This document shows, one piece after another, positions 4,352-27,520 of a stretch of 64,000 bases of DNA. The DNA is from Nitrospira sp. MA-1 (GTDB lineage Bacteria > Nitrospirota > Nitrospiria > Nitrospirales > UBA8639): assembly GCA_032139905.1 (NCBI GenBank), contig JAQJDB010000006.1, forward strand, positions 620,001-684,000, given 5' to 3'. The notes under the pieces are model-generated. The model was not told where the DNA came from and did not search any database. It worked only from the letters and a program-made list of their open reading frames with translations. Every line of letters starts with the position of its first letter. Position 1 is the stretch's first letter. A program made the translations under genes and the position numbers.

Positions 4352-5269
4352 ATGATGATGAGAGTTTTGGTGGTCGTGATCTTCCTGATGATGGTGTCAT
4401 CCATGGGGTGGGCCTATCAAGAGAGCCAGGTCAGCAATGGAGGGGCAATTCAAGGGCATGTCCGTTTACTTGGTGAACCCCCAAGACCGATGGCGTTTAA
4501 TCTCGTCACGATCCCGGATGCCGTATATTGTGGAAGAATTTCTACCGGAACTGGGTGGCGCATTGTTGAGGATTTTATTATTGGGCCTCAGGGATCGCTT
4601 AAGGATGCGGTGGTGATGGTAAAAGGGGTAGACAAAGGCAAACCGTTTTCTTTGCCAAAGGTCGAGGTTGAGGCGATTGATTGCGATTTTTTGCCATTTG
4701 TCAATGTCTTAAAGGACCAGGATGAAATCACCGTGATTAATATGGATCCGGTAGAACATGATATCCAGGGATATGAAACGGCAAGAGAACGAGGGGCCAG
4801 GGTCTTGTTTAATCGTCCGTTGCCCATGAACCCCTTTCACAATGTAGTTGGTATGTTTGGGGAAAATGTCCATACCCATCTTCCCGGAAAACCGATGATT
4901 GAAAAAATTCATTTGCGAAAGGGCCGTGATGTGTTTGTTATGCAATGTGGATTTCATCCCTATATGTTTTCTTGGGGATTAGTGGTGGAAAATCCCTATT
5001 ATTCGATTTCCAAAGAGGATGGAGCCTACGAAATTAGCGATATTCCAGCAGGAGAATATGAGGTGGCTGTTTGGCATCCTGGTATGAAAACCTATTTAGA
5101 AAAAACAGTCCGGGTGGAATCGGGAAAAACGCTGACATTAGACTTTCAATATGAGTCTCCCCAGGGACGGCGAAGCGTGCATGAAATGCAGGAAAATCCG
5201 CATTTTGGGCTGGAGATGCTTGGAGAGGGCGTTGAGATTATCCCGTCGTTACGACGACAAGTTCCCTGA
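4352..5269 (+). CDS. Exported cupredoxin-like / carboxypeptidase-regulatory-like protein A
   Basis: About 20 N-terminal residues form a signal peptide (hydrophobic run ending GWAYQ). A beta-rich region follows with a plastocyanin-like first copper ligand (NMDPVEHD, around residue 135) and the C-terminal ligand cluster CGFHPYM (around residue 200), which has the Cys-x2-His-x3-Met spacing of type 1 copper sites. The last 80 residues (DGAYEISDIPAGEYEVAVWHPG) are a carboxypeptidase-regulatory-like domain. The next gene is a clear paralogue (shared YCGRIS, GKPFSLPKVE and MDPVxHDIQ), and a third lies at 10645. A periplasmic copper electron carrier is the simplest reading, but metal binding is inferred. 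The start is supported by AAGGAGGG. Confidence 0.75.
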   Translation: MMMRVLVVVIFLMMVSSMGWAYQESQVSNGGAIQGHVRLLGEPPRPMAFNLVTIPDAVYCGRISTGTGWRIVEDFIIGPQGSLKDAVVMVKGVDKGKPFSLPKVEVEAIDCDFLPFVNVLKDQDEITVINMDPVEHDIQGYETARERGARVLFNRPLPMNPFHNVVGMFGENVHTHLPGKPMIEKIHLRKGRDVFVMQCGFHPYMFSWGLVVENPYYSISKEDGAYEISDIPAGEYEVAVWHPGMKTYLEKTVRVESGKTLTLDFQYESPQGRRSVHEMQENPHFGLEMLGEGVEIIPSLRRQVP

Positions 5270-8262: not shown

Positions 8263-8333
8263 CCAGTTTGGTTGTTGCCCTATAAGCGGTCTTCCTGAAG
8301 ATGGACAGGTACGACCAGATAAAGGGTGTTCAC

Positions 8334-10343
8334 ATGTTCCTCCAACTTGTGCGGTTCATTGGGAAATGCACCCCTTTGGGCCAATTCTGGCGCACGATCA
8401 TCAAGTTCGCATTCGTCTCGGTGACTGAGGTGCGGAATGACTTATGCCGTATCCAGGGAGGTTGCAGATTATGGATGCTGGCCGGATTCGGTGCATGGCT
8501 TCTCGTCAGTCCCGTTCATGCTGAAATACGGCCTCATAGTGAGTCTATCGACCATCCAATTATTCAATGGCATGAATGGGGAAATGAAGCGTTCGAACGT
8601 GCGCAAGCCGAAGACAAATTAATTATTTTGGATCTAACCGCCGTATGGTGTCATGCCTGCCATGTGATGGATCAGACGACTTACGCTAACCCTCGTATCG
8701 TACAGTTGCTCAACACCAAATTTATTCCTGTTCGGGTCGATACGGATCAGCGCCCAGATTTGGATGCTCGTTATCGAGCGGGAGGGTGGCCGACGACCAA
8801 CGTCCTTCTGCCGACCGGAGAAATTCTTTTTCAGGCGAACGCCTTGGGTTCTGAGGAAATGGAAACCATGCTCCTTGAGGTGCAGTCTATTTATGTCGCC
8901 GACAAAGGTGAGTTGCTCAAGCAGGCCTCTCATTTATGGGAGCGGGTAAACGAGAAGGTGAAGAACGATTCTTCCAGAGGGAATGAGCTTCAGGCGTCTA
9001 TGGCAAAGCAAAGTGTGGCTATGATGAGAGCTCAATTTGACGCTGTCAATGGAGGGTTTCGGGATGCCCCTAAATTCTTCGAACCGGAAGCCATCCAAAT
9101 GGTTTTTGCCTATGGCTTCTTTGAGGAGGATCCTGAGCTACTCAAGATAGGATTGGATACCTTAAAAAGACAAGTGCGCTTACTTGATCCGGTTTGGGGA
9201 GGATTTTACCGCTATGCCGAACAAGCAGATTGGAGTCAACCGCATTTTGAAAAGATGTTGTCGATTCAAGCTCTGAATCTTCGCAACTATGTTGAAGCCT
9301 TCCAACTCACCGGGGATCTTCAATTTAAACGCGTCGCCCTGGCGCTCATTGAATATGTTTCGCGGTTTTTAACCGATTCGCAAACGGGGTTATTGTATGA
9401 AAGCCAAGATGCCGACGTTCTGGGAACTGAAGGGGAAGCTTTCATGCCTGGAGCCGAGTACTATTCTCTCAATGAGAGCAAACGATTGGCCGTCGGTATC
9501 CCATATGTGGACCAACGAGTTTTTACGGGGAGTAATGCATTGATGGCTTGGGCCTATTTGCATGCCTCATTGGTATTGGAAAAATTCGAAATAGGGAACA
9601 TGGCTCTTCAGATGTTGAGCCGATTGTATGAGAAGCGTTTTGACATGGAAAAGGGGCTTGCTCATGTTGAGACGGGAGGGGTTCCAAGCCTTTACGGTTT
9701 ATTGTCTGATCATGTGCTCTTTGGTCAAGCGTTACTTGAGGCCTTTAAAGTGACAGGGCAATCTCAGTATTTACAAAAGGCTGAAGCCCTCGCCGATGTA
9801 AGCCGGCGGTTATTGCACGATTCGGAGAATGGGGGATTTTTTGATCATCCACAGACGTCTGGTAAATTAGGTCTTCTGAAGTTCCCAGCTAAACCGGTGA
9901 AGGGAAATCTTCAAGCCGCCATTTGGTACCTCGATCTTTTTCATCTGACGGGGAAGCAACCATATCGTTTTCTGGCTGAGAATGCCTTGCAGGCCATGGT
10001 CATGTCCCGGGAGCCACTCCCCCTCGCATTGTCCGGATTGGCTATCGATCAATGGTTTCGGATCCCTATTCATATTGCGGTGGTAGGAGATTTTGACGAT
10101 GCCATGACCAAAACCCTATTGGTGGAAGGTCAGCGAATGTTTTGCCCTGGAAAAATTGTGAAAAGTTTTGACTCCAAGGAGGGACCGCCGAAATGGGGTG
10201 ACATTATTTTTCCCTATGAGGAACGACCTGTCGCGTTTGTCTGTACTGACCGGATGTGTTCGGCTCCGGTCTTTCATGCAGAGGACATGAAAAAGAGTGT
10301 GGCCGACATGGTGGCCCTACTCAGGGACCCTGTACAAAAATGA
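8334..10343 (+). CDS. Thioredoxin-domain / YyaL-like protein
   Basis: A hydrophobic segment ending SPVHA-E looks like a signal or anchor. It is followed by a DUF255/YyaL-type thioredoxin domain: LDLTAVWCHACHVMDQTTY gives a CHAC active site, with cis-proline region GWPTTNVLLPTG. The remaining 450 residues are an (alpha/alpha)6-barrel-like region as in YyaL/SSP411 proteins (KFFEPEAI, PHFEKMLSIQALNLRNY). The start is uncertain: ATG 8334 has AAAGGG upstream and is used here, ATG 8301 is possible, and a start near 8430-8473 would give a more ordinary signal peptide. A periplasmic thiol-disulphide role near copper and heme proteins would be sensible, but is not shown. Confidence 0.75.
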   Translation: MFLQLVRFIGKCTPLGQFWRTIIKFAFVSVTEVRNDLCRIQGGCRLWMLAGFGAWLLVSPVHAEIRPHSESIDHPIIQWHEWGNEAFERAQAEDKLIILDLTAVWCHACHVMDQTTYANPRIVQLLNTKFIPVRVDTDQRPDLDARYRAGGWPTTNVLLPTGEILFQANALGSEEMETMLLEVQSIYVADKGELLKQASHLWERVNEKVKNDSSRGNELQASMAKQSVAMMRAQFDAVNGGFRDAPKFFEPEAIQMVFAYGFFEEDPELLKIGLDTLKRQVRLLDPVWGGFYRYAEQADWSQPHFEKMLSIQALNLRNYVEAFQLTGDLQFKRVALALIEYVSRFLTDSQTGLLYESQDADVLGTEGEAFMPGAEYYSLNESKRLAVGIPYVDQRVFTGSNALMAWAYLHASLVLEKFEIGNMALQMLSRLYEKRFDMEKGLAHVETGGVPSLYGLLSDHVLFGQALLEAFKVTGQSQYLQKAEALADVSRRLLHDSENGGFFDHPQTSGKLGLLKFPAKPVKGNLQAAIWYLDLFHLTGKQPYRFLAENALQAMVMSREPLPLALSGLAIDQWFRIPIHIAVVGDFDDAMTKTLLVEGQRMFCPGKIVKSFDSKEGPPKWGDIIFPYEERPVAFVCTDRMCSAPVFHAEDMKKSVADMVALLRDPVQK

Positions 10344-12624: not shown

Positions 12625-13350
12625 ATGGATGAAATGGCGGTATGGCTGAGAGAACCCGGATTTTTCGGCACCCATGCCACGGTTGGAGCGGATGTGAGCC
12701 AACTCATGGCGACGTTCTTTACGGCATTGTTTATTGTCGGATGGATTCAGGCGAGGCAGCACAACAATGATCGGCACCATTGGCTGATGTTCGGTGGGAT
12801 GATTGCCATGCTCGCCTTCTTTATCAGCTATTATTTGTTTCGCAGTCTGGGTGTCCTGGCTTTTGAGGGAAAGGAAGGCTTTGGCGGACCTCAATGGTTA
12901 TATGACCAGGTGTTTGTCCCTGTCTTGACCCTTCATATTCTCCTGGTCGTGATCGGCCTCGTGATGGCCATTTATATGATGGTGTTGGGGTTCCGGTCAC
13001 AGACTTTCGTGGAAGGGAAGCGGGTTTTGAAGGATGCGATATTAAAGACTTCCGGGAGACGTATTGCGATGATCCTGGGAGGGGTGACCACCATTGTCCT
13101 CCTATTTTTCCTGTCACGGGTCATGACCTCTGGATTTTCCATGGGAAAATTCAGTGTGTATCTTGGTCTTATTCTTCTCATTGCATTGGTGTTTGGCATT
13201 GAAATATCTATCCAGCGGATTTGGCCAAATGGGGCCAGACGGCATCGAGTGCTTGGACGATTCACCATGGTGATTTACTGTGTCTTGTTCGTAACGGGAA
13301 CGTTCACCTACACGATGCTCTACATCCTCTATCCAGGAAAAATTGGGTAG
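12625..13350 (+). CDS. DUF420-family membrane protein
   Basis: About 241 residues with roughly six hydrophobic segments and the histidine-containing loops of the DUF420 (YozB/CtaM-like) family: LMATFFTALFIVGWIQAR, HHWLMFGGMIAM, HILLVVIGLVMAIYM and RRHRVLGRFTMVIYCVL. CtaM-type proteins of this family help mature terminal oxidases in some bacteria. Its position upstream of a bd-like oxidase fits a similar role here, which is inference. It ends seven bases before the next start. Confidence 0.75.
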   Translation: MDEMAVWLREPGFFGTHATVGADVSQLMATFFTALFIVGWIQARQHNNDRHHWLMFGGMIAMLAFFISYYLFRSLGVLAFEGKEGFGGPQWLYDQVFVPVLTLHILLVVIGLVMAIYMMVLGFRSQTFVEGKRVLKDAILKTSGRRIAMILGGVTTIVLLFFLSRVMTSGFSMGKFSVYLGLILLIALVFGIEISIQRIWPNGARRHRVLGRFTMVIYCVLFVTGTFTYTMLYILYPGKIG

Positions 13351-14978: not shown

Positions 14979-16850
14979 TTGAAAAATCTTTTCAAACCAT
15001 TATTGAGTGTGCTGTTCATCTTTCTCATGCAGTCCGGAATTGCGTTGGGTATGGATGCTTATTCCTTACCGGCAACTGATGGGCAGGCAAGCCAGGATAT
15101 TTTCTACAAAACTCCCGGAACGATTGAGGGTCCATCTGTCGCGGAGACCCACCAGGATTATTCAGCTTATCCTCTCGTGGATAACCGGTTGGTGGTCTGG
15201 TTTGTGACTCAGCAACACACCTACTTTGGGGGATTTGTCTTATCAATTCCCCTATTTTGTCTATTATTGGAATTCATAGGAATTACTCGAAAGCAGCCGG
15301 CATCCCAACAGAAGTTCGATGGACTGGCTCGTGATATTTTGCGCGTGGCCCTGTTGTCCTTGTCCATTACCGCTTTATTAGGCTGTCTCATGCTCATAAC
15401 CTTTGTGACTCTTTACCCTGGGTTTATGAGTTACATGGGGTCGACGTTTAAGCCCGTCATGCCGGTGTATGCCACGGTGTTTGTGAGTGAAGCATTCCTG
15501 TTGGCCCTCTATTATTACACCTGGGATTTTCTCAAGACTCCGGCGGCAAAGTGGGTCCATATGACTCTTGGAGTTCTTTCAAACGCAACCGGAGTGGTTT
15601 TACTGTTGTTAGCCAATTCATGGGCTTCGTTTATGATGGCACCAGCCGGAGTTGATGCCGAAGGGCACTTTTTAGGAAATGTGTGGCATCTTTTGCATTC
15701 TCCATTATGGAATCCACTGAACACGCATCGCTTTTTGGCGGATATTATGTCAGGTGGCGCCGTGGTCGTCGCCTATGCGACCTACCGGTATTTCATGGCA
15801 AAAACCCCTGAGGATCGGGCGTATTATGATTGGGTTGGGCATGTCTTTATTGTGGTTGTGGTCTGTGCGCTCCTGCCCATGCCACTTGCAGGCTACTGGT
15901 TGATGCGCTCTGTGTTTGAGTTTCGGCAAACTATGGGCATGGCCATGATGGGGGGAATGTTGTCGTGGCTGTTTGTGCTTCAAGCTATTATGGTTGGTGT
16001 CTTGTTTTTGGGAATTAATTATTACATCTGGCAATCATTGGCCCGCCTTCAGGGTGGTGAGCGCTTTCATCCACATTTTAAGGCCATTCTCTTTACATTG
16101 ATGGTGTGTTTTCTCGTGTGGTTTACCCCGCACACCATTGCGATGAGTGGGAGTGAGATGAAAGCCATGGGCGGGCAACAGCATCCGGTGCTTGGGAATT
16201 ATGGGGTCATGTCCGCAAAGAATGGTGCGGTTAATGTCATGATCTGTTTAACCGCACTGAGTTACATTCTGTATCGGCGAGCCAATTATGTGATGACAGT
16301 ACCGTGGGCATCCAAGGGAAATATTTTTCTTGTGGGGTTGTTCCTCATGGGGATTGCCAATATTGTGTGGTTGGCTATTTACGGATTTTATATTCCGGCA
16401 AATGTCCGCGTGGGCCTTTCTTACCCTCAAGGGATGACGACCGCGACTCTAGTGGTTGGTGGGTTATTGTTGAATCGGTTGTTATTGCGTGGCGCTCACA
16501 TGAACGGGCCTGTGCATTGGGGACGAATTACCCCGCGTGGGATTGTGGCATTGTTTGTTGTGGCTGCCGCCTTTACCTGGGTAATGGGGTTGATGGGGTA
16601 TATACGGTCCGTTGGCCGATTGGAGTGGCATATTTCCGAAATAATGCCGGATCAATCCTCGTGGGCATTTACCCCTTCTCTGGGATTTGCAGCAAAAATG
16701 GTCACCCTCAATATGATTGTTTTTTGGTCTTCAGTCTTTTTCGTGTTTTGGCTTAGCCGACGGGATCAACAAGTGGTAGAGCGGCGAACGGCTGAATTTG
16801 CAAGGCCTTCTCCGGTGATTCAGGTTATTTCAGAAGAGGAATCCGCATAA
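14979..16850 (+). CDS. bd-like terminal oxidase, paralogue 1
   Basis: About 623 residues, a signal-like N-terminus and around 14 membrane spans. CydA-like elements are present: TQQHTYFGGF (His80, heme ligand candidate), ANSWASFMMAPAGVD (compare NGW...P.GAD in CydA), NTHRFLADI, and GYWLMR. The C-terminal half has PHTIAMS and GGQQHPVLGNYGVMSAKNG, histidine motifs not found in ordinary CydA. The protein is closely similar to the one at 20587 over its whole length. There is no CydB gene. The TTG start (14979) is supported by the signal-like N-terminus and tight packing with the upstream stop. The stop overlaps the next start (TAATG). In Nitrospira such proteins are regarded as candidate terminal oxidases; the electron donor of this copy may be a copper protein from the same region. 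Confidence 0.8.
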   Translation: MKNLFKPLLSVLFIFLMQSGIALGMDAYSLPATDGQASQDIFYKTPGTIEGPSVAETHQDYSAYPLVDNRLVVWFVTQQHTYFGGFVLSIPLFCLLLEFIGITRKQPASQQKFDGLARDILRVALLSLSITALLGCLMLITFVTLYPGFMSYMGSTFKPVMPVYATVFVSEAFLLALYYYTWDFLKTPAAKWVHMTLGVLSNATGVVLLLLANSWASFMMAPAGVDAEGHFLGNVWHLLHSPLWNPLNTHRFLADIMSGGAVVVAYATYRYFMAKTPEDRAYYDWVGHVFIVVVVCALLPMPLAGYWLMRSVFEFRQTMGMAMMGGMLSWLFVLQAIMVGVLFLGINYYIWQSLARLQGGERFHPHFKAILFTLMVCFLVWFTPHTIAMSGSEMKAMGGQQHPVLGNYGVMSAKNGAVNVMICLTALSYILYRRANYVMTVPWASKGNIFLVGLFLMGIANIVWLAIYGFYIPANVRVGLSYPQGMTTATLVVGGLLLNRLLLRGAHMNGPVHWGRITPRGIVALFVVAAAFTWVMGLMGYIRSVGRLEWHISEIMPDQSSWAFTPSLGFAAKMVTLNMIVFWSSVFFVFWLSRRDQQVVERRTAEFARPSPVIQVISEEESA

Positions 16851-17584
16851 TGAAAGTTTATCATGGGCAATACAATAATTTAGGAAATGTGAAGCGAGTC
16901 CGTGCAAGGTCTTCTTTTTTGGCCTGTTTAATCGTGAGTATTTTAGTATATGGAAGTGGTGCCGCATGGGCCCAAGAGGTTTCGAACACAGGGTCTTCCA
17001 GTAGTTCGATGGTGTTGGAGGATTTTCAGCATCCTGATGCTAAAGGATTTCCCGTGGGATGGGAAGCGCAGCGGAGTACGGTCACTGCCCATGAAACCTA
17101 TACGATTCAGGAAGAGGATGGGACTTTTTTCCTTTCGGCAAAAGACGCCAATCAACGAGTTTATACCAAGCACATGACGTGGGACCCGAAGCAGCACCCT
17201 ATTCTGACCTGGCGTTGGCGGATTCAGACGGTTCCCGATAACGCCGATTTCCTGGCCGCAATCTACCCGTCATTGGATGTTGACTTGATGTTTATTCCCG
17301 TGAATACGAAATATGTGTGGAGTGCAACGCTTCCGGTAGGGTCAGTCAAAGAGGGTGGCATGTTTAGCTCCACGGAAATTGTCATTCGTAGTGGGACTGA
17401 ATCCCTTGGGACGTGGGTTGAGGAGCGGGTTAATGTATATGAAGATTTTCTGAGGATTCATGATCATGAGCCGGCTCCACATGCCTGGGGTATTTCTTTG
17501 TTAGGAGGGCCGGGAGTGGAAGTGGACTTTGGGTCCATTCAGGTTCAGGCTGAATCATCCAAAGGTGAGCTTGTGCGTGAATGA
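16850..17584 (+). CDS. Exported DUF3047-family protein
   Basis: About 244 residues; the start overlaps the stop of the oxidase gene. A signal peptide (cleavage near AWAQ) leads into a beta-sandwich protein of the DUF3047 type: VLEDFQHPDAKGFPVGWEAQ, LTWRWRIQTVPDNADF and LLGGPGVEVDFGSIQV. The biochemical role of the family is unknown. Tight coupling to the bd-like oxidase implies a periplasmic partner or assembly factor. Confidence 0.7.
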   Translation: MKVYHGQYNNLGNVKRVRARSSFLACLIVSILVYGSGAAWAQEVSNTGSSSSSMVLEDFQHPDAKGFPVGWEAQRSTVTAHETYTIQEEDGTFFLSAKDANQRVYTKHMTWDPKQHPILTWRWRIQTVPDNADFLAAIYPSLDVDLMFIPVNTKYVWSATLPVGSVKEGGMFSSTEIVIRSGTESLGTWVEERVNVYEDFLRIHDHEPAPHAWGISLLGGPGVEVDFGSIQVQAESSKGELVRE

Positions 17585-17594
17585 AGAGTGAAAA

Positions 17595-17969
17595 GTGAAG
17601 ATAACTCCAGCTAAAATTTTTGATGTCCTCCTTGGAGTCCTGGGATTAGGGACAGTGGGCCTCTTGATCGGGGTCTTCATGGGAGATGGGTGGCTTCCTG
17701 TTGCGTTAGCATTGGGAGCCATTCTTGGGGCCGGAGTGGGCTTGGTAGGCGGACGAGGATTTTTTTTGAGTATTTTTATCGGAACCATTTTAGGTGGTTT
17801 GTTGACATTAGGAGTGAGTGGAACCGAGGCTGTGACGGTTGGCGCAGCCTCGGGTGCGGCAATGGGTGGATTTTTGGGAATTTGGATTTCGATGCTTATA
17901 GAGACGTGGCGACAACGGAATCAAACCGTTCCTGAGTGCGATAAGCATCCTAATCATTTACAACCGTAA
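17595..17969 (+). CDS. Small glycine-rich membrane protein
   Basis: About 124 residues from GTG 17595, ten bases after the DUF3047 gene. Four hydrophobic segments are rich in Gly and Ala (VLLGVLGLGTVGLLIGVFMG, ALALGAILGAGVGLVGG, GAASGAAMGGFLGIWISML), ending in a charged cytoplasmic tail. No family recognised. Probably co-transcribed with the oxidase. Confidence 0.55.
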   Translation: MKITPAKIFDVLLGVLGLGTVGLLIGVFMGDGWLPVALALGAILGAGVGLVGGRGFFLSIFIGTILGGLLTLGVSGTEAVTVGAASGAAMGGFLGIWISMLIETWRQRNQTVPECDKHPNHLQP

Positions 17970-18019
17970 TCAATCTGAATCATCGAGGTGAGTGTGTCAA
18001 AGCGAGAGGCAAGGTAGTC

Positions 18020-18940
18020 ATGGAAAATCAGCGGGTACTCATCGGCTCAATTTTATTTGTATTCGGCTCATTTATCATGATGATCGTGATGTTGATTTAT
18101 ATGACTTATAAAGGGAAGGCTGATTTGGCGGAATTGTCGGCCGGCCAACCGGCCAACGTCAGGGTCTTGCAGCCAATGCCCACACAAGATTTTTCCATGT
18201 ATAAAACGTTTGTCGGGGATGATGGCCGGGAAATGGTCGAAATTCCTGAAGGGCCGTTTACCATGGGCATTGAGGATGGGGATCCCGATGAAGGGCCATC
18301 GCATCCGGTGTATCTCCAAACGTTTTATATCGACCTTAAAGAAGTCACACAAGCAGATTATGATCGGTATATCAAGATGACGAAACGGGACAAACCTAAG
18401 GTGCCGGTCTTTGAAGATGATGTCTCCAAGCTGGTCGGTCTCGATTATCCGGTGGTGGCTGTGACCTGGAACGATGCCTTTGGGTATTGTCAGTGGGCTG
18501 GGAAGCGGTTGCCGACCGAAGCGGAGTGGGAAAAGGCGGCCAGGGGAGAAGGGAAGCGGCGTTATCCTTGGGGGGAAAAATTCGAATATCAGTTTGCCAA
18601 TGTTGATGGGAAGGAAGATGGCTTTCAGTATTTAGCTCCTGTGGGATCCTTTGAGGTAGGGAGAAGCCCTTTCGGACTCTATGATGCCACCGGCAATGTA
18701 GCCGAGTGGGTCATGGATAGTTATGCTGCTGACTATTATCAACAGGCCCCATATCGGGATCCCCCAGGACCAAAAGTCGAAGATGAGAATAAAGTCATTC
18801 GTGGGGGCTCTTGGCGAGAATCTCGTATCGGCGCCAGGGTTACCAAGCGTTTTGCAGCTAAAATGTGGAGGAACGATGCCAGTGTTGGATTTCGGTGCGC
18901 AAAAGATCCTCCGGCCACTGAGACTCCTCAATCCTCCTAA
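18020..18940 (+). CDS. SUMF1/formylglycine-generating-enzyme-like anchored protein (2 of 3)
   Basis: About 306 residues with one N-terminal transmembrane anchor (LIGSILFVFGSFIMMIVMLIY) and a SUMF1 domain: EIPEGPFTMGIEDGDPDEGP, CQWAGKRLPTEAEWEKAARG, GNVAEWVMDSY and RGGSWRESRI...GFRCAKDP. The catalytic cysteine pair of formylglycine-generating enzymes is absent. It is followed by a second copy of the family at 19026. Periplasmic, function unknown. Confidence 0.8.
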   Translation: MENQRVLIGSILFVFGSFIMMIVMLIYMTYKGKADLAELSAGQPANVRVLQPMPTQDFSMYKTFVGDDGREMVEIPEGPFTMGIEDGDPDEGPSHPVYLQTFYIDLKEVTQADYDRYIKMTKRDKPKVPVFEDDVSKLVGLDYPVVAVTWNDAFGYCQWAGKRLPTEAEWEKAARGEGKRRYPWGEKFEYQFANVDGKEDGFQYLAPVGSFEVGRSPFGLYDATGNVAEWVMDSYAADYYQQAPYRDPPGPKVEDENKVIRGGSWRESRIGARVTKRFAAKMWRNDASVGFRCAKDPPATETPQSS

Positions 18941-19025
18941 GCGGTAAGCAGGCTCCTCGCCGGCGTGAATAATCGCCCATGGTTTCTCGAAATAGGACAC
19001 ATTGACGGATAAGGAATAGGGAGAC

Positions 19026-19898
19026 ATGGACGGTCGATTTAAATTAATTTTTCTGATTGCGGTCCTGTTTATGACTGGCCTGCCATTATTAGGGATTTTG
19101 AAAGGGACCGACACTCCCCCAAGTCTCCAGGACCCAACTCCCCAATCAATGCCTTCTTCAGCATTGGAGCCGTCCACAGAATCGATGGTTCCTGATCCTG
19201 ACATAGGGAATGAGATGGTTGAGATACCTGCAGGGGAATTCATTCTTGGCAGTAATGAAGGCGGATTTAATGAAAAGCCTGCCCACGTCGCTAATTTAGG
19301 GACGTACTGGATTGATCGATATGAAGTCACCTATAAACGGTATATGGAATTTGTGGAAGCTACAGGCCATCGGCAACCTGGCCCGCCATCTCGTTATGCC
19401 GCAAAGCTCGGACTGTTAAGAGGGCCTTATCAGCCGATTACCTATGTGTCATGGAGCGATGCGAATGACTATTGTCAGTGGAAAGGCAAGCGTCTCCCTA
19501 CCGAACAGGAATGGGAAAAAGCTATGCGAGGGACAGATGGACGCACCTGGCCGTGGGGTGATGGGTTGACCGGACATCCTGCCAATTTTGCAGGGGAGGG
19601 CGATGGGTTTGAAGTATCGGCTCCAGTAGGTTCGTTTCCCCTTGATCAAAGTGTATTCGGGGTCTTTGACGGGGCAGGAAATGTTATGGAATGGACGGAT
19701 AATTGGTACGTGGAGGATCTATATCTACAGAAAGATTCAGTTTCGCAAGAAAATAATCGGCCAACCTCGACTTACAAGACAATGAGAGGAAGTGGGTATA
19801 CGAGCCGAGGCGTAGATCTCCGAATCACCAATAGGAGTTTTATGGTTCCTGATTTTCGAGATGAGACAATTGGTTTCAGATGTGCACGTTCAAATTAA
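19026..19898 (+). CDS. SUMF1/formylglycine-generating-enzyme-like anchored protein (3 of 3)
   Basis: About 290 residues: N-terminal membrane segment, a proline- and serine-rich linker (residues 30-65) and a SUMF1 domain (FILGSNEGGFNEKPAH, CQWKGKRLPTEQEWEKAMRG, GAGNVMEWTDNWY, MRGSGYTSR...GFRCARSN). The catalytic cysteines are again missing. The ATG at 19026 follows ATAGGGAG. With the copies at 3046 and 18020 it makes three divergent members within 17 kb. Confidence 0.8.
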   Translation: MDGRFKLIFLIAVLFMTGLPLLGILKGTDTPPSLQDPTPQSMPSSALEPSTESMVPDPDIGNEMVEIPAGEFILGSNEGGFNEKPAHVANLGTYWIDRYEVTYKRYMEFVEATGHRQPGPPSRYAAKLGLLRGPYQPITYVSWSDANDYCQWKGKRLPTEQEWEKAMRGTDGRTWPWGDGLTGHPANFAGEGDGFEVSAPVGSFPLDQSVFGVFDGAGNVMEWTDNWYVEDLYLQKDSVSQENNRPTSTYKTMRGSGYTSRGVDLRITNRSFMVPDFRDETIGFRCARSN

Positions 19899-19942
19899 TG
19901 ACAATAAAGGTGACGAAATTCTGTTGAGGAAAATCAAAAAAA

Positions 19943-20047
19943 TTAAAGAAAATCAAAATAGTAGAGGATGAGAAAGACGGCAAGCAGAATATTGACAACC
20001 ATTCCGGCCAAAACTATAATGTCGAACACTTTTGCATTTGTACGCAT
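19943..20047 (-). CDS. 34-residue single-span membrane protein (minus strand)
   Basis: Reading from ATG at 20047 down to TAA at 19943 gives 34 residues: a short polar start (MRTNAKVFD) and one long hydrophobic helix rich in Ile, Val and Leu ending YYFDFL. AGAGGG stands seven bases before the ATG. The overlapping plus-strand frame (19968-20174) is polar and has no good SD, so the minus-strand reading is preferred. It lies divergently to the small genes that precede the bd-like oxidase. It could be a small oxidase or cytochrome subunit; no family is recognised. Confidence 0.5.
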   Translation of the reverse strand: MRTNAKVFDIIVLAGMVVNILLAVFLILYYFDFL

Positions 20048-20175
20048 GTGCAATCCCTCTTTTTACGTGATCAATAAATGTTTGAATAGCACGAAAAATT
20101 ATATTATGTCAATGAAGTTTATTAGGGAAAATCATTTAAGATTCAGTTTCGAATTAAGCACAGGGAGGAATTGAA

Positions 20176-20310
20176 ATGGGTGATTCGACGGCTGTCATAA
20201 GAGAGTCAACGGAGTTAGAGACTAAAATTGGAAAAGCGATTTTTTATGTAACCTGCTCGGTAAGCCTTTGGTTTTTCTATTGGTTTTCAGGCATTCAGTG
20301 CCCCTGCTAA
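20176..20310 (+). CDS. 44-residue single-span membrane protein upstream of bd-like oxidase
   Basis: ATG 20176 follows AGGGAGG (20162-20168) by seven bases. The polar N-terminus is followed by one hydrophobic helix with many aromatics (KAIFYVTCSVSLWFFYWFSG) and the protein ends IQCPC. The good SD, membrane pattern and position before another tiny membrane gene and the oxidase suggest a real small subunit or assembly factor, comparable in size to CydX-type subunits though not recognisably homologous. Confidence 0.6.
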   Translation: MGDSTAVIRESTELETKIGKAIFYVTCSVSLWFFYWFSGIQCPC

Positions 20311-20372
20311 AAAAGCATGATTTCCAATAAGACAATCAATTATTTAATACTCTTAGACGCAAGGAGGGGCGC

Positions 20373-20489
20373 ATGCAGACAGCTCTGTATGTAATAGTTT
20401 CATTGGTTATTTGTTTTGTGTATTTTCAGGCACTGGATTATGTACTGATGGACGCTCAGGGGTTGGACTATTTCTACATGTTCAGATAG
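20373..20489 (+). CDS. 38-residue single-span membrane protein upstream of bd-like oxidase
   Basis: ATG 20373 follows AAGGAGGGG (20361-20369), an excellent SD. The product is a hydrophobic helix (ALYVIVSLVICFVYFQAL) and a short acidic and aromatic tail (DYVLMDAQGLDYFYMFR). The size and single span recall CydX/CbdX-like subunits of bd oxidases. The oxidase gene starts 97 bases later. The functional link is inference. Confidence 0.6.
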   Translation: MQTALYVIVSLVICFVYFQALDYVLMDAQGLDYFYMFR

Positions 20490-20586
20490 TCGTAAGAATG
20501 GAAATATTTAAGATTCACATTCATGACGAATTTTAGGTAAATTTGATGGGTTTAAACACAACACGTTTTCACAAGGAGGTAGGTCA

Positions 20587-22554
20587 ATGGGTCGCCTGTT
20601 CAATCAAATGACCCGGGGGAAGAAAAAGTTGTTCGCCGTTTCGGCCCTGATGGTAATGGGCGGTCTGCTTTTGCTGCCAATTTTCCTGTCAGTCTCAGCT
20701 GTGGCGAGTGGTGGCGGGGCACCAGCAGGTGGTCCTCCACCAGATGTCGTTGCCGCACAAAAGGCGGGAGAGGAAGGCGAGGCGGAAAAGGTGGAGATGG
20801 GCCGTGACATTTATTACAAGACGGAAGGTCCAGCCATTGGAGAGGGCGCACCGGTAACGGCCGACAACGAAACTTTTTATCCTCGGTATAACTTCGAGAG
20901 TCGTGTCCTCCTTTGGGTAGCCAACCAGCAGCATCTTTACTACGGTAGCTTTGTGTTGGCGGTTCCAATCTTTTGTATGTGTATCGAATTTGCCGGTATG
21001 GTGAGCAAAGATAAGGCTATGGCCAAGAAGTATGACCAATTGGCTTATGATTTTATCAAGATCAGTCTGACGGCCTATTCTTTAACTGCGATCCTGGGTG
21101 GGATCCTGATCTTTACCTTCCTGACTCTTTATCCTGCCTTTTTTGGATACTTATCTAGTATTTTCCGTCCGGTCATGCACATTTATGCATTAACATTCGT
21201 GGCGGAAAGTGCAACCCTCTACATTTATTACTACGGATGGGACAAGATGAGGGAAGGGGTCCTGAAGTGGGTTCATCTCAGCATGTCGGTGATTCTGAAT
21301 GTGATTGGAACGGTGCTGATGTTCCTCGCTAATTCATGGATTGCGTTTATGATGTCCCCGGCTGGAGTTGATGAGCAGGGGAGATATCTTGGAAATATTT
21401 GGCATGTAATTCATACGGCCCTTTGGAATCCTTTGAATGTTCATAGGATTCTTGGGAACATGGCATTTGGTGGTGGTGTGGTAGCTGCCTATGCTGCCTA
21501 TCGCTTCCTTTCATCAAAAACGGATGAAGAGCGTGCTCATTATGACTGGATGGGCTATATCGCAATGAGTTTAGGTGTGGCGTTTTTAATTCCGCTACCC
21601 TTTGCCGGATATTGGTTGATGCGGGAGGTGTATGCCTACCGTCAGCAGATGGGAATTACCTTAATGGGTGGGTTGCTGGCTTGGTTATTTATTATTCAAG
21701 CCACCATGATTGGAATTCTATTCCTCACCACCAATTATTACCTGTGGCAAGCTCTTGGCCGTATGACGGGTGGAGAGCGTTTCCAAAGGTATATTAAATA
21801 TCTCGTGTTTATCTTAGTGGTTGGGCTTCTGGTGTTTATTACGCCGCACACGATCGTGATGTCTCCCGCGGAATTGAAAGCGATGGGCGGGCAGCAGCAT
21901 CCGGTCCTCGGAAATTATGGTGTCATGTCTGCCAAAAATGGTGGAATTAACGCCATTATCATGACAACCATTCTGAGTTTTATTTGGTACCAGCGAGGGA
22001 ACAGGGTCCCCACAGTTAGCTGGGCTAAGTTTGGTAATATTTTTATGGGCTGTTTTTTTGTCATAGCACAGCTAAATAATGTTTGGTTGGCTTGTTATGG
22101 GTACTTTATACCTGCAAACGTACGAATCGGTTTGTCTGTGCCTCAGGTGGCGGGAACCTTGTCTTGTCTGCTCTTAATGACCCCGCTCAACCTGGCGATG
22201 TTGAAAAATGGAAGACAATTGGGGCCGATCAGATGGGGCCAAATTCCACCACGTTCACAATATGCGATCATCATGTTGGCCACAGCATTCACGTGGATGA
22301 TGGGATTAATGGGGTATATCCGTTCTTCGGTGCGATTATTCTGGCACGTGAATGAAGTAATGCGGGATAATTCTCCATGGGCCTATACCCATACAATTGG
22401 TTTTGCGGCAAACGTTATTTCGTTTAATGTGCTGTTTTTCTGGATCAGTATAATGTTTGTCTTTTGGCTTGGCACACTAGGTGCTAAAAAAATACCGGTT
22501 CCTTCGCCTGCAGGGCAGCCAGTTCCATCTCCTCAATCTGCAACTGGTCATTAA
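20587..22554 (+). CDS. bd-like terminal oxidase, paralogue 2 (main respiratory copy)
   Basis: About 655 residues with an N-terminal signal-like segment, a Gly/Pro-rich linker and some 14 membrane spans. CydA-like features: ANQQHLYYGSF (His116), ANSWIAFMMSPAGVD, NVHRILGNMAFGGG. The second half keeps TPHTIVMS and GGQQHPVLGNYGVMSAKNG as in the copy at 14979. The start has a perfect SD (AAGGAGGT, 20573-20580). No CydB follows; instead there are three cytochrome c genes, so electrons probably come from cytochrome c rather than quinol. A bd-like oxidase of this kind, reported to carry histidines reminiscent of heme-copper oxidases, was described in Nitrospira genomes and is the presumed terminal oxidase of nitrite respiration. 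Confidence 0.85.
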   Translation: MGRLFNQMTRGKKKLFAVSALMVMGGLLLLPIFLSVSAVASGGGAPAGGPPPDVVAAQKAGEEGEAEKVEMGRDIYYKTEGPAIGEGAPVTADNETFYPRYNFESRVLLWVANQQHLYYGSFVLAVPIFCMCIEFAGMVSKDKAMAKKYDQLAYDFIKISLTAYSLTAILGGILIFTFLTLYPAFFGYLSSIFRPVMHIYALTFVAESATLYIYYYGWDKMREGVLKWVHLSMSVILNVIGTVLMFLANSWIAFMMSPAGVDEQGRYLGNIWHVIHTALWNPLNVHRILGNMAFGGGVVAAYAAYRFLSSKTDEERAHYDWMGYIAMSLGVAFLIPLPFAGYWLMREVYAYRQQMGITLMGGLLAWLFIIQATMIGILFLTTNYYLWQALGRMTGGERFQRYIKYLVFILVVGLLVFITPHTIVMSPAELKAMGGQQHPVLGNYGVMSAKNGGINAIIMTTILSFIWYQRGNRVPTVSWAKFGNIFMGCFFVIAQLNNVWLACYGYFIPANVRIGLSVPQVAGTLSCLLLMTPLNLAMLKNGRQLGPIRWGQIPPRSQYAIIMLATAFTWMMGLMGYIRSSVRLFWHVNEVMRDNSPWAYTHTIGFAANVISFNVLFFWISIMFVFWLGTLGAKKIPVPSPAGQPVPSPQSATGH

Positions 22555-22580
22555 CGAAAAATACAATTACAAACAATCGT

Positions 22581-22601
22581 GGGGCTGCATTAGGCAGCCC
22601 C
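22581..22601 (+). other. Intercistronic hairpin between oxidase and cytochrome genes
   Basis: An 8-bp GC-rich stem (22581-22588 with 22594-22601) and a 5-base loop lie just before the SD of the next gene. There is no T tract, so it is more likely an RNA processing or stability element than a terminator. Confidence 0.55.
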
Positions 22602-22620
22602 CAAGTTGGAGGATTGCACT

Positions 22621-23934
22621 GTGGTTGAGTTATTGGGACGGGCGATAGGAATGGGTTGGCCAGTATTACTGATGCTGGTTGGGCTATTGCTGTATTTCCA
22701 GGCAACTATTTCGGATCCTGAAAAAAAGAAAAGGGCAAGTTTTCAGACCATAATTGGAATTTTTTGTGCTTTTTTAGCGTTTATCGCTATTTCCAATTAT
22801 ACCCATAATTTTGAAGGGGAAAGTCGGTTGCTGCCGGTTTCCCTTGTCATGATCACTATCATGTCTTTTATTATGGGTCTCTATTTTCCGAATATCAGTG
22901 CCCTAATGAAAATTGGAGGGTTCATGTTTTTTGTGGCGGCCGCGCTTTCCGGGTACGGAAATTGGCTGCCTCAGGTCGAGGGCGGATTCCCTCCACCGGT
23001 CGTGAAGTTAGACTTCCAAAGTATGTCACCGCAACAACTTGGTGATGAAGGGGAAAAAATTATATTTGGTGGGATTGGGCAAAGTAAAACCCAAGGAGCC
23101 ATAGGGAAAGGCCAGTGCCCGTTGTGTCATGGGTTCCAACAGGGATTTTTAAGTGAACGGGCACCTAATTTATTTGGAATTCCTGAAAGATCTGAAGAAA
23201 GATTAAAAGAGCCAAATTACCATATGAATAATGCCGCTGCTCGAACTACTGAACAAAAGGAAGCTTTTGAAGGATCGGGGACGGCTACAAATGCTCAGGA
23301 ATACATTGCTGAGTCACATGCATGCCCGAGTTGTTTTGTAGTAACGGGATTTGGGGTCAAAGGATCAAATGATACCGTAAGTCCCATGCCTAAGATTCAT
23401 AAACCACCGATATCTTTAACAATCGGCGAAATGGCAGCAGTGGATACCTGGATGTATACGAGGGAAGGAAAAGAAGCTCCTGCTTATGATGTGATTGCTA
23501 CCTCATATGAAAAGTTCATTCCAGAAGCCGATCGCCCCTCTGCGGGTGGAGAAGAAGAAGCTGGTGGTGGTGGTGGGAATCTTTTAGCTGACGGGAGCGA
23601 GCCTTACGACAAGCTCTTTATGAAAGCCGGTTGTCCTGCCTGTCATACCATTCCCGGGATTGAAGGAGCCACGGGAAAAGTTGGTCCTCTTCTCATGGAG
23701 GGATCAAATGCTCCCAATCGGATTAAAGATCCCAACTATAAGGGTAAAGCAAAATCTCCTAAGGAGTACATTACTGAATCGATATTAGACCCAAGTGCCT
23801 ACGTGGTAAAAGATTTTCCTGACGATCAAATGCCAAAGGACTTTGGTGTAAGGCTCACAGGCGGTGCACTTAGTAAGATGGTCGATTACTTGGCGCAATT
23901 AAAAGAAGGCCAACCTTTACCTCCAAAAGAATAA
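22621..23934 (+). CDS. Membrane-anchored diheme cytochrome c
   Basis: GTG 22621 follows GGAGG (22608-22612). Five or so hydrophobic segments occupy the first 120 residues. Two class I cytochrome c domains follow: CPLCH at residue 166 and CPACH at residue 338, with methionine ligand candidates in SPMPK and DQMPKDFG. A third motif, CPSCF at residue 235, has Phe in place of the heme-binding His and cannot bind heme in the usual way. A Gly/Glu-rich linker (around residues 305-320) joins the domains. It is probably the electron-donating partner of the bd-like oxidase just upstream. Confidence 0.85.
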   Translation: MVELLGRAIGMGWPVLLMLVGLLLYFQATISDPEKKKRASFQTIIGIFCAFLAFIAISNYTHNFEGESRLLPVSLVMITIMSFIMGLYFPNISALMKIGGFMFFVAAALSGYGNWLPQVEGGFPPPVVKLDFQSMSPQQLGDEGEKIIFGGIGQSKTQGAIGKGQCPLCHGFQQGFLSERAPNLFGIPERSEERLKEPNYHMNNAAARTTEQKEAFEGSGTATNAQEYIAESHACPSCFVVTGFGVKGSNDTVSPMPKIHKPPISLTIGEMAAVDTWMYTREGKEAPAYDVIATSYEKFIPEADRPSAGGEEEAGGGGGNLLADGSEPYDKLFMKAGCPACHTIPGIEGATGKVGPLLMEGSNAPNRIKDPNYKGKAKSPKEYITESILDPSAYVVKDFPDDQMPKDFGVRLTGGALSKMVDYLAQLKEGQPLPPKE

Positions 23935-23979
23935 GAAATATTAATTTAGGGTATAACCCTTTATAAGGAGTAAGGAAGA

Positions 23980-24948
23980 ATGACGTGGCTTAAATTAGTT
24001 GAAGGCTACATGCCGATGCAGATGATTTCCGAGTTGGCGATCTGCATCCTTGTGTTTTCTATTATTAATTACTCTCTCAAGAGAGCAGGCATGGGATTGC
24101 CAAAGTTTTGGGCAGGAATCTTTGTCTGGTGTTTCGTGAATTTGTTTTATTTGAAATATCGAATTTACCCACCAATACCATTTAGTGTGCGGGCTATTTA
24201 TGGCACCGTGGCCGCTTGCGGTATTTTTATGTGGGTTTCGGGGTCACAGCAGGAATGGGAAGAATTCAAGCGCCCAATTATCAATGTGTTGGACGCAAAA
24301 ACGGGTTTGACCAAGTTCGTTCGTACGGCCCTATTGATTTTATTACCTATTGGACTCTGGGGATTTGCCTACAACTCCTTCCTGCCAAGTTTTGATGAAC
24401 CCATTGAGCTAAGAACTGTGCATCCGGCCCCACCGGCCACAACTAAAGTTCATGGAAAAACATATGTATTACAAACCGCAGCTAATCCTTTTCGTATCAA
24501 TACTGAAGGGAAATACGATCAGGCATACAGCAACGCTCATATCGTCAGCCAGGATATGGGGCGATTAATGAAGGATGTGAAAAATCCGGAAGATAACCCC
24601 TGGGATCCCAATGCGAAAGGCTACATCAAACATGTTCGTGAGGGGGGGGAGATCTTTTTTCAAAATTGCCATTTTTGCCATGGGGATAATTTAAATGGCC
24701 GGGGTCTTTGGGCATTCGCGTTTAATCCAATACCTGCCAATTTTACGGATGCAGGAACCATCGCTCAGCTACAAGAAACCTTTGTTTTCTGGAGGGTTGC
24801 TAAAGGTGGAATTGGTCTTCCTGGTGAGGGGTTCCCATGGGCATCAGTTATGCCACCGTGGGAACAGCATTTAACCGTTGATGAAATATGGAAAGTCATC
24901 ATGTTTGAATACTGGCACACCGGGTATTACCCGCGGACTTGGGAATAA
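23980..24948 (+). CDS. Membrane-anchored monoheme cytochrome c
   Basis: About 322 residues; ATG preceded by AAGGAGTAAGGAAG. Four membrane spans in the first 140 residues lead into a periplasmic class I cytochrome c domain with CHFCHGDNLNGRG (heme Cys at residue 230) and a C-terminal PWASVMPPW methionine ligand candidate. Four bases before its stop begins the SD of the next gene. It is part of the oxidase cluster and likely relays electrons between the periplasm and the oxidase. Confidence 0.85.
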   Translation: MTWLKLVEGYMPMQMISELAICILVFSIINYSLKRAGMGLPKFWAGIFVWCFVNLFYLKYRIYPPIPFSVRAIYGTVAACGIFMWVSGSQQEWEEFKRPIINVLDAKTGLTKFVRTALLILLPIGLWGFAYNSFLPSFDEPIELRTVHPAPPATTKVHGKTYVLQTAANPFRINTEGKYDQAYSNAHIVSQDMGRLMKDVKNPEDNPWDPNAKGYIKHVREGGEIFFQNCHFCHGDNLNGRGLWAFAFNPIPANFTDAGTIAQLQETFVFWRVAKGGIGLPGEGFPWASVMPPWEQHLTVDEIWKVIMFEYWHTGYYPRTWE

Positions 24949-24961
24949 GGAGGACGCGGAC

Positions 24962-26836
24962 ATGAATGGTAATAAATCCCAAAATGGACTTTTTGAAAAG
25001 AGGATGGTCATGAACGAAACGACGACACCGGCCGAATATGGAAGGAGGGGTTTAGGAGCCTGGCTTCTGAGTTGCGGTCTCCTGATTGGTAGCCTAGGCC
25101 TAGCAACCACCTCCCACGCGGAAATGGCGGAAGGATTTGCCGAAGGGAGTCGCCCCGCCCCGCCATCTGCGGAACAGGTTGAAGCAGGGAAGCGAGTGTA
25201 TTTCACCAAATGTGTATGGTGTCATGGGGTTGAGGGGGCTGGTGACGGACCCGGAGCCGATCGATTATGGCCGCGTCCACGGAATTTTAATGCAGGGACA
25301 TTTAAAATCCGACATACCGCGAGCGGTGAATTGCCCCTAATAGACGTGGATTTATTTCAAACCGTTACCCATGGATTGCCTGGTTCGGCCATGCCGTCAT
25401 GGGAGGGTATTTTGACCGAAGATCAACGCAGAGATGTATTGGCTTTTGTGACAACTGAGTTAGTCAAGGATCGTAGTTGGCAGGATACGGAATTTGAAGA
25501 ATTCCATGTATTGCAATTGGATAAAATTCAACCGGTTGCTCCCTCGGCTGAATCAATCAAACGCGGTTCGGAGTTAGTAAAAGAAATGAAATGTATAGAA
25601 TGCCATGGGGTAGAAGGTCGGGGAGATGGGAATGCCTTTAATCTCAAAGATGACTGGGGCTTTTCCATTCAACCTGCGGATTGGCATAAATGCTGGAATT
25701 TCAGAGGCAGCCGACAAGATGCCTATAATGTAAAAAACATTTTCCGGACATTTTCCACAGGGGTAAGTGGAACGCCGATGCCATCTTTTGCAGATAATAC
25801 TACTGTAGAGGACAGGTGGCATATTGCCAATTACGTCAATCATCTTTGTGAACGTGATGTTGATGTGGATATTGCCGGAGGTAATGTGACGGATGAAATC
25901 GCTGCGGCTTTACTAGCGGCAAAGCCCAGGGGAATTGATCCTCTTACGGATAAACCCAAAGTTGATTTCGTGGTTCCTTCTAAGTTTGTCGAAGGAGAGT
26001 TGCCGGCTGACGAACATGATGAACGTTGGAAACTGGTTGACCGTCGCATTGTAGCCATGGGAGGGCAGATCACCCATAAACCAAGAAACTTTGTGACAAG
26101 AATTGACGATGTGTGGGTTCAATCCTTGTACAATGAAACCCATATCTCATTTATGTTCCGTTGGGATGACCGGACCAAGAGTGTGCAGCAAGATAGCGTT
26201 GACTGGGAACCCTATGAGGTAAATCTTGGAGATTACGGTATAGAAGAACAGGCACCAGGAGGATCAAAATTTGCCGATGATCCTGAACACCCTGAATCGA
26301 TTGCCGCGAAACAAACGGCCTATCAAGTGTTTAATGACGGGCTGGCTTTTCAGTTCCCAATAAAATGGCAGGAATTGCCTGCGCCAAGAAAGCCTAGATA
26401 TTTCTGGGGAGATGAGGGATTTCCCGTGGACATCGCCAAATGGACGGCTGATGGAGAATTGAAAGCGTACCAAGGTGAAGGTTGGGATGTTGATTTCGAA
26501 GATCGTGACGATTTCACCGAAGAACTGAAAACTGTGAAAGCTGAATGGAAAGATGGACGATGGACGGTTATCATAACGCGCCCACTCAAGGGTGACTATG
26601 AGGAAGATGCTTACATTGAATTGGGAAAATATATTCCTATTAATTTCTTTGTTTGGGATGGTCACAATGGGGATGTCGGGCGAAAGATGGCAGTCTCCGC
26701 TTTCTATTATCTGGTGTTAGAGCCACCCATAGAAAAAGAAACATATATTTACCCAACACTGGCCGCCATTGGGTTGGTCCTTGTTGAAGGGTGGATTTTG
26801 ACCCGACGCGCTAATCGTCGTAAGGGTAAAGTCTAA
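24962..26836 (+). CDS. Diheme cytochrome c fused to an NxrC/EbdC-like heme b domain
   Basis: ATG 24962 is preceded by AAGGAGGA (24947-24954). A signal-type segment (GAWLLSCGLLIGSLGLA) is followed by two cytochrome c domains (CVWCH at residue 84, CIECH at residue 211, with SAMPSW and TPMPSF methionines). The C-terminal 280 residues belong to the ethylbenzene-dehydrogenase gamma family: RWDDRTKS, FQFPIKW, INFFVWDGHNGDVGRK. The lysine in GRKMAVSA aligns with the lysine heme b ligand region of EbdC. One helix near the C-terminus anchors it. It probably links a type II DMSO-reductase-like enzyme such as Nxr to the oxidase. Confidence 0.85.
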   Translation: MNGNKSQNGLFEKRMVMNETTTPAEYGRRGLGAWLLSCGLLIGSLGLATTSHAEMAEGFAEGSRPAPPSAEQVEAGKRVYFTKCVWCHGVEGAGDGPGADRLWPRPRNFNAGTFKIRHTASGELPLIDVDLFQTVTHGLPGSAMPSWEGILTEDQRRDVLAFVTTELVKDRSWQDTEFEEFHVLQLDKIQPVAPSAESIKRGSELVKEMKCIECHGVEGRGDGNAFNLKDDWGFSIQPADWHKCWNFRGSRQDAYNVKNIFRTFSTGVSGTPMPSFADNTTVEDRWHIANYVNHLCERDVDVDIAGGNVTDEIAAALLAAKPRGIDPLTDKPKVDFVVPSKFVEGELPADEHDERWKLVDRRIVAMGGQITHKPRNFVTRIDDVWVQSLYNETHISFMFRWDDRTKSVQQDSVDWEPYEVNLGDYGIEEQAPGGSKFADDPEHPESIAAKQTAYQVFNDGLAFQFPIKWQELPAPRKPRYFWGDEGFPVDIAKWTADGELKAYQGEGWDVDFEDRDDFTEELKTVKAEWKDGRWTVIITRPLKGDYEEDAYIELGKYIPINFFVWDGHNGDVGRKMAVSAFYYLVLEPPIEKETYIYPTLAAIGLVLVEGWILTRRANRRKGKV

Positions 26837-26870
26837 GGAAAATGTGAACTTCGGAAATATCCGAAAAATG

Positions 26871-26899
26871 AAGGGGGTGGGCAACCACCCCCTTTTTTT
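26871..26899 (+). terminator. Rho-independent terminator closing the oxidase cluster
   Basis: A 10-bp G/C-rich stem (26871-26880 with 26885-26894), GCAA loop and seven T. The T tract ends at 26899, exactly before the mobA ATG. A weaker hairpin (26850-26865) precedes it. Confidence 0.9.
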
Positions 26900-27520
26900 A
26901 TGACCAATATTAAAAAATTTACAAATATTTCCGGTGTAGTCTTAGCAGGCGGGAAAAGCCGGAGGATGGGGAAAGATAAGAGAATCCTCGAATGGGAGGG
27001 GGTTAAATTTCTCGATAAAGTTTGCCTCACCCTCGTAGAATTATTTGATGAAATCATTGTGGTGACTGCCATTGAAGATTACCCTTGCGGACACCTCCCT
27101 GTTAGATCAGTGACCGACGCCATTCCTCATACAGGTTCCTTAGGGGGCATGTTTACCGGGATCAAGGAGGCCTCTCATTCTTCTGTATTTGTAGTGGCCT
27201 GTGATATGCCATTTTTAAATCCATCGGTTATTTCAAGACTCTGCGCTTTACCTGATAATGATGTGGTGATGGCCAATCTTTCAACCGGATATCAACCTCT
27301 TCATGCACGATATTCCAAACGTTGCTCCCTCATAATGGAGAGGATGATTCAGGACGGGAATCTTCGAATTCATAGCCTGATTCAGGACTCATCTCTCTCG
27401 GTCCAAATCGTTGAGGAATCTTTATTCGATGATATCGATCCTCATGGGTATTCTTTTTTGAATATTAATACTCCCTTTGATTTTGAATTCGCTAGAAAAG
27501 CTGCTTCTCATCTGAAATAA
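26900..27520 (+). CDS. mobA: Molybdenum cofactor guanylyltransferase MobA
   Basis: About 206 residues with the MobA nucleotide-binding signature GVVLAGGKSRRMGKDK near the N-terminus, TGSLGGMFTGI and the catalytic-type VVACDMPFLNPS. It transfers GMP to molybdopterin to make the bis-MGD cofactor used by Nxr and other DMSO-reductase-family enzymes. The ATG sits right behind the T tract of the preceding terminator, leaving no room for an SD, so expression probably uses read-through or a leaderless transcript. The next gene starts four bases after its stop. Confidence 0.9.
   Translation: MTNIKKFTNISGVVLAGGKSRRMGKDKRILEWEGVKFLDKVCLTLVELFDEIIVVTAIEDYPCGHLPVRSVTDAIPHTGSLGGMFTGIKEASHSSVFVVACDMPFLNPSVISRLCALPDNDVVMANLSTGYQPLHARYSKRCSLIMERMIQDGNLRIHSLIQDSSLSVQIVEESLFDDIDPHGYSFLNINTPFDFEFARKAASHLK

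Follow-up and report, generated by a model that had tools for sequence, protein, structure and literature searches.

Three very small genes, here called sA, sB and sC, lie beside a cytochrome bd-like gene, bd-like_3, in Nitrospira sp. MA-1; on comparison of related genomes they are conserved protein genes under purifying selection. Because they are conserved beside this bd-like oxidase gene, their products are probably new small subunits of its complex. So far as the family libraries and the parts of the literature covered here show, the three are unnamed. The back strand of sC, furthermore, carries the probable promoter of sA, sB and the oxidase gene in the order Nitrospirales, and this placing of a promoter inside a gene is the most unusual part of the locus. 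The window, as we use the term, is the whole stretch of 64 000 nucleotides that was analysed.

A preliminary description of the window had listed three frames of 44, 38 and 34 codons, the last on the minus strand, each encoding one hydrophobic helix, and we found them to be as described. The sA frame (20176..20310, + strand) encodes a 44 amino acid protein, MGDSTAVIRESTELETKIGKAIFYVTCSVSLWFFYWFSGIQCPC, with a charged N-terminus, one helix and the C-terminal residues WFFYWFSGIQCPC; the Shine-Dalgarno region ahead of its start is AGGGAGGA. The sB frame (20373..20489, + strand; Shine-Dalgarno region AAGGAGGGG) encodes 38 amino acids, MQTALYVIVSLVICFVYFQALDYVLMDAQGLDYFYMFR, in which one helix is followed by DAQGLDYFYMFR. 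The sC frame (19943..20047, − strand), which starts with the ATG at 20047 and has AGAGGGA ahead of it, encodes a single-helix protein of 34 amino acids, MRTNAKVFDIIVLAGMVVNILLAVFLILYYFDFL. There is a single hydrophobic stretch per protein (Kyte-Doolittle 19-residue maxima: sA, 1.42; sB, 2.17; sC, 3.06), the weakest being that of sA, which is rich in Trp and Tyr; the AlphaFold model of sB has one helix (residues 2–36). When the 688-bp gap was randomized by 2000 Markov shuffles, frames with an ATG start and at least 30 amino acids, a Shine-Dalgarno sequence and a mean hydropathy over 19 residues of 1.6 or more (a cut that sA itself does not reach) arose at 0.018 per region, and never three together. 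Another frame, of 68 codons (19968–20174, + strand), overlaps sC in antisense; it is not a gene, its conserved first part being a shadow of sC and of the promoter.

The preliminary description had made the reality of the frames depend on their conservation between related genomes, and conserved they are. A family survey (48 genomes searched, 30 loci examined) found 27 loci at which each of the three begins with ATG and has a near-constant stop, the remaining three loci (L013, L025 and L026) being cut short upstream. A Shine-Dalgarno-like sequence is present at the family loci, weaker in some sA and sC copies. Identity to the window copy ranges from 59 to 100% for sA, from 57 to 100% for sB and from 91 to 100% for sC, and all three helices are near-invariant in the family. 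The pN/pS ratios of sA, sB and sC are 0.07, 0.06 and 0.10 in the closest set and 0.10, 0.23 and 0.08 in the whole family. The phylum was sampled evenly with 295 genomes; among the 98 that belong to Nitrospirales, sA occurs in 94, sB in 93 and sC in 96. Absences coincide with a missing oxidase (G017 and G221, where none was found) or with contig breaks (the oxidase runs from contig base 51 in G136, and sA lies at the edge in G246); in G286 the oxidase and sC are on separate contigs.

The same description placed the small genes before the main oxidase, which proved to be incorrect. In the portions of the N. moscoviensis study covered here, the proposed terminal oxidase is bd-like_2, near alt_nxrC_1 (NITMOv2_0740), and bd-like_3 is a separate gene that clusters with two c-type cytochromes and alt_nxrC_2 (NITMOv2_3640; diheme, 66.8 kDa), bd-like_4 lying a few genes off (PMC6606698). 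In the window, a 655 amino acid CydA-like large subunit (20587..22554, + strand; PF01654, E 3.9e-19) is followed on the same strand by two membrane cytochromes c, both syntenic in the class Nitrospiria (22606..23934, Pfam Cytochrom_C; 23980..24948, Cytochrome_CBB3, E 3e-6), and then by an alt_NxrC_2-type diheme cytochrome c of ~67 kDa with an ethylbenzene-dehydrogenase-type (EB_dh) domain (24956..26836, start codon provisional). The second CydA-like protein of the cluster, of 623 amino acids, is encoded at 14979..16850 (+ strand; PF01654, E 3.4e-20). N. moscoviensis has the same large genes in the same order, with an ortholog of the large subunit at 3441966–3443855 (81% identical), a counterpart of the 623-residue protein at 3447467–3449179 and an alt_NxrC_2 ortholog at 3437676–3439415 (67.3 kDa, two CxxCH motifs); its bd-like_1/2 pair lies at 0.70 Mb and is at most 44% identical to the window oxidase. 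Since the ortholog of the window oxidase sits at the 3.44-Mb locus with alt_NxrC_2, the window, judged by gene order and chromosomal position, holds bd-like_3 and bd-like_4. Synteny and position on the N. moscoviensis chromosome thus rule out the proposed terminal oxidase (bd-like_2, NIDE0901-like).

The large subunit has both the CydA domain and the fold of the cytochrome bd superfamily: its AlphaFold model (mean pLDDT 72, moderate confidence) gave ten structural matches at E ≤ 1e-3, all to CydA-type chains (TM-score by query length 0.33–0.42). By sequence, the only match among solved structures is a weak one to a bd menaquinol oxidase (9r2g). As far as the parts of the two papers covered here go, the bd-like_3 cluster is among the 40 most transcribed genes of N. 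moscoviensis (PMC6606698), is reported to be conserved in Nitrospina and anammox bacteria (PMC6606698, PMC3578206), and the quinol-binding residues are reportedly missing from such bd-like proteins (PMC3578206); in those parts the large genes are described and the small ones are nowhere mentioned. Two tandem FGE-sulfatase-type proteins (18020–18940 and 19026–19898), conserved across the class Nitrospiria, are encoded beside the bd-like genes.

The genome of Nitrospira sp. MA-1 also contains an 80%-identical paralog of bd-like_3 (L007:5146–13033, C5), which directly precedes a molybdopterin protein (~1150 residues) and an iron-sulfur protein, taken here to be NxrA and NxrB. The NxrA-like protein is found at the same place in other paralog loci (L108, L119, L127 and L169–L171), and none of sA, sB and sC was seen beside the oxidase at the paralog loci. 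That the paralog stands immediately ahead of nxrAB-like genes makes it more plausible that the complex serves nitrite oxidoreductase.

In the genomes compared, the three small genes are tied to one oxidase gene, bd-like_3. At 109 oxidase loci (some of which repeat one genome) sA and sB share the strand of the oxidase and lie no more than 1.2 kb from it, with sC no more than 4 kb away on the opposite strand. The N. moscoviensis copies are at L116:3604–3723 (sA, + strand), L116:3794–3913 (sB, + strand) and L116:3385–3486 (sC, − strand). In other orders of the class Nitrospiria, including Candidatus Manganitrophus, which has all three genes, diverged sA and sB directly precede the oxidase. There sC is present in nine genomes; it is encoded on the opposite strand throughout the class, and in several outgroup orders it lies ~2 kb away, between the two FGE-type genes. 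Outside the class, families f13 and f18 have the colinear order sC-sA-sB-oxidase on one strand (L182, L183 and L185). Profiles built without f13 and f18 sequences recover sA (E 1e-8 to 1e-10) and sB (~5e-5 to 7e-8) in these families; for sC the profile E-values, from a small database, are a modest 1e-4 to 0.07, to which position adds weight. For the most distant sC and sA copies, homology is judged from modest profile scores over short hydrophobic stretches. In Nitrospinota, sB alone of the three was seen, just ahead of the oxidase, and its core there is D(Y/F)FLQAYQGL..FP; in family f6 and its relatives the core reads QNL..PY. Common to the sB cores are an acidic residue close to where the helix ends, then Q-G/N-L and then an aromatic residue, and the sB motif can be written D..L...QGL..F. 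Around bd-like_1/2 no small frame is conserved between the genes; those found lie within the large genes or overlap them. Second copies of sA that stand alone and keep the ending WFFYWLNGIQCPC occur at ~4751–4925 (+ strand) of L051 and ~8130–8340 (− strand) of L052, with no recognised oxidase-cluster gene in the surrounding 12 kb.

Small single-helix partners of a bd-family protein are a known kind, though, in the literature covered here, not previously named for this one. CydX, AppX and CydS likewise have 30–45 residues and one helix, are encoded with a CydA-type subunit and share a likely structural role, which for CydX and CydS in canonical bd oxidases lies in assembly and stability (PMC8951039). 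The comparison with CydX-type subunits in the preliminary description holds for anatomy: 44, 38 and 34 residues fall within the range of about 30–50, each protein has one membrane helix, and each gene is linked to a CydA-type gene. It does not extend to recognisable kinship. No Pfam or NCBIfam family matches sA or sB at E ≤ 10, the CydX and AppX models included, sC has only chance-level matches to unrelated families there, and profiles of the three searched against all PDB chains of at least 20 residues (E ≤ 10) retrieved no CydX, CydS or CydH chain; homology to CydX, CydS or CydH was accordingly rejected. The arrangement also differs: the small genes stand upstream of the large-subunit gene and come as a set of two or three different ones, and the partner is a bd-like protein. 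CydH (CydY, YnhF) of E. coli bd-I, which is encoded off the operon and known from proteobacteria (PMC8951039), shares its enzyme with an unrelated small subunit of one helix, so two such proteins can coexist; it too has no sequence match to sA, sB or sC.

The predicted promoter (19992..20020, + strand) is a TTGACA-N17-TATAAT sequence inside sC, on the opposite strand; it matches the sigma-70 consensus at 12 of 12 positions and is directed at sA-sB-oxidase. The site inside sC is the single occurrence of this exact sequence in the 4.76-Mb genome; 16 other genomes have one to five exact matches each, the sC site always among them, and the exact promoter is present at 89 of 91 Nitrospirales loci. 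In N. moscoviensis it occupies 3444422–3444394 (− strand). In the outgroups it is absent from sC although the sC protein is conserved. Synonymous variation in sC is low (pS 0.15, in comparison to 0.54–0.74 in 34-codon windows of the oxidase) because the perfect promoter occupies the opposite strand: codons 10, 11, 17 and 18 are fixed by the hexamers and have a pS of 0.014, while in codons 19–34, outside the promoter, pS is 0.72 and pN 0.056 (pN/pS 0.08). Even the third base of codon 19, just beyond the hexamer, is free (AAT 61, AAC 27). From the codon usage of the oxidase in each genome, the probability of finding all four required codons together is only ~0.001; taken with the freezing of the hexamer codons, this shows selection at the DNA level on top of selection on the protein. 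Thus −35 and −10 hexamers, a spacing within 16–18 nt and constraint on the DNA are all found here, and in Nitrospirales the back strand of sC carries the probable promoter of sA-sB-oxidase. The minus-strand frame, presented in the preliminary description as a third small gene, is indeed a gene; it is not a simple neighbour of the other two, since it carries their probable promoter. It offers a clean case of two codes in the same DNA, read in opposite directions and kept across a whole order.

Weaker evidence points to a candidate promoter of sC facing this one (20083..20112, − strand), with TTGACA at 20112–20107, an N18 spacer and an extended −10, TGC-TATTCA (hexamer 20088–20083). It forms a conserved block in the alignment of the 128-bp sC-sA spacer, and in most of 89 loci the exact TTGACA is the best minus-strand −35, at a near-constant distance from the extended −10 (TGn-TAT...); the −10 itself is weak, and the site falls below the threshold of the promoter scan. 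Usual spacing from the −10 places the predicted starts near 20027 (+ strand) and 20076 (− strand). No Rfam element was found in 17000–27000 and, with a simple scan, no intrinsic terminator in the intergenic region.

In nitrite-oxidizing and comammox bacteria the bd-like proteins hold a central place, and the cluster of bd-like_3 is highly transcribed in N. moscoviensis. Tight linkage to one oxidase gene across the phylum, single helices and small size are best read as those of accessory subunits, and we infer, on good grounds, that the bd-like_3 complex includes sA, sB and, probably, sC as accessory subunits of one helix each, with the operon promoter inside sC; this reading is the probable one. 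The preliminary description had likewise suggested new oxidase subunits: the frames are conserved, unnamed in family libraries and tied to bd-like_3, and their standing as subunits is a matter of likelihood. The complex would comprise bd-like_3, the two membrane cytochromes c, alt_NxrC_2 and perhaps bd-like_4, in addition to the small subunits. Packed against the CydA-like protein, these would be required for its assembly or for the stability of its heme, a role like that of CydX and CydS in canonical bd oxidases but separately evolved. In Nitrospirales the sA-sB-bd-like_3 operon would be driven from the perfect sigma-70 promoter inside sC, and sC expressed from its own weaker promoter facing it. 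Transcripts from two facing promoters would have overlapping 5' ends (~50 nt) and might interfere with each other; what is observed is the sequence of the operon promoter and the constraint on it, and activity and interference are what they suggest. If accessory subunits they are, the overlooked proteins would offer handles for tagging and purification and missing chains for cryo-EM.

Several observations count against subunits. The 80%-identical paralog before nxrAB-like genes has none of the three beside it, so that either it shares the small proteins in trans or this fold does not depend strictly on them. Some copies of sA stand alone, with no oxidase gene nearby. The orientation of sC against the operon, held throughout the class, would be unusual for a subunit present in stoichiometric amounts, and the profile scores of the most distant sC and sA copies are modest. 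Alternatively, sA, sB and sC may be assembly factors that help to insert heme or metal, or to dock cytochrome c or NXR, and are not part of the mature complex. We consider this unlikely: the genes do sit with the paired FGE-type proteins, sA does have lone paralogs and its tail could mean metal handling, but constitutive subunits would account no less well for the conserved gene order directly before the large subunit and for the near-invariance of the helices. By the positive-inside rule the N-termini of sA and sC would be inside, in which case the sA tail faces the periplasm. Almost every Nitrospirales copy closes this tail with Cys-Pro-Cys, and most outgroup copies have a His as the last residue or close to it (exceptions being L041 and its relative L042); that it binds metal is speculation from these residues.

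It is similarly doubtful that sC is regulatory and not a subunit, its transcription or its small protein tuning the operon via the facing promoters. The antisense position of sC throughout the class, the embedding of the promoter in its frame in Nitrospirales and the candidate facing promoter would all suit such a role, for which scbA-scbR of Streptomyces coelicolor, with facing promoters and a 53-bp overlap, provides a modelled precedent (PMC3134472). There, too, divergent genes have transcripts overlapping by ~50 nt at their 5' ends, whereas here one predicted promoter lies inside a conserved membrane-protein gene. Against regulation by sC stand the codirectional sC-like genes outside the class, the outgroup orders in which sC lies ~2 kb off without such a promoter and the protein is still conserved, and the low pN/pS of codons 19–34, beyond the promoter. 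Rather improbable is the most elaborate version of the accessory-subunit reading, in which three tiny subunits are integral to an NXR-linked bd-like machine, a metal ligand comes from the outer tail of sA (through Cys-Pro-Cys in Nitrospirales and His in other groups) and the back-strand promoter of sC couples expression by facing transcription, the set being conserved in Nitrospirota and partly in Nitrospinota. That sC is not a gene and its frame a mere by-product of the conserved promoter, as the four hexamer-fixed codons might suggest, is very improbable and was rejected, since codons 19–34 keep the protein while synonymous change is free and the protein is conserved in outgroups without the promoter.

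Two minor features were noted in the same clusters. Upstream of bd-like_4 the window encodes a DUF420 membrane protein (12625–13350) and a protein with a protochlorophyllide-reductase-type domain (PF08369; 13343–13837). In one Nitrospiraceae genome (L046, reverse strand, 4968–5171) sB is 67 amino acids long and has an additional N-terminal hydrophobic stretch.
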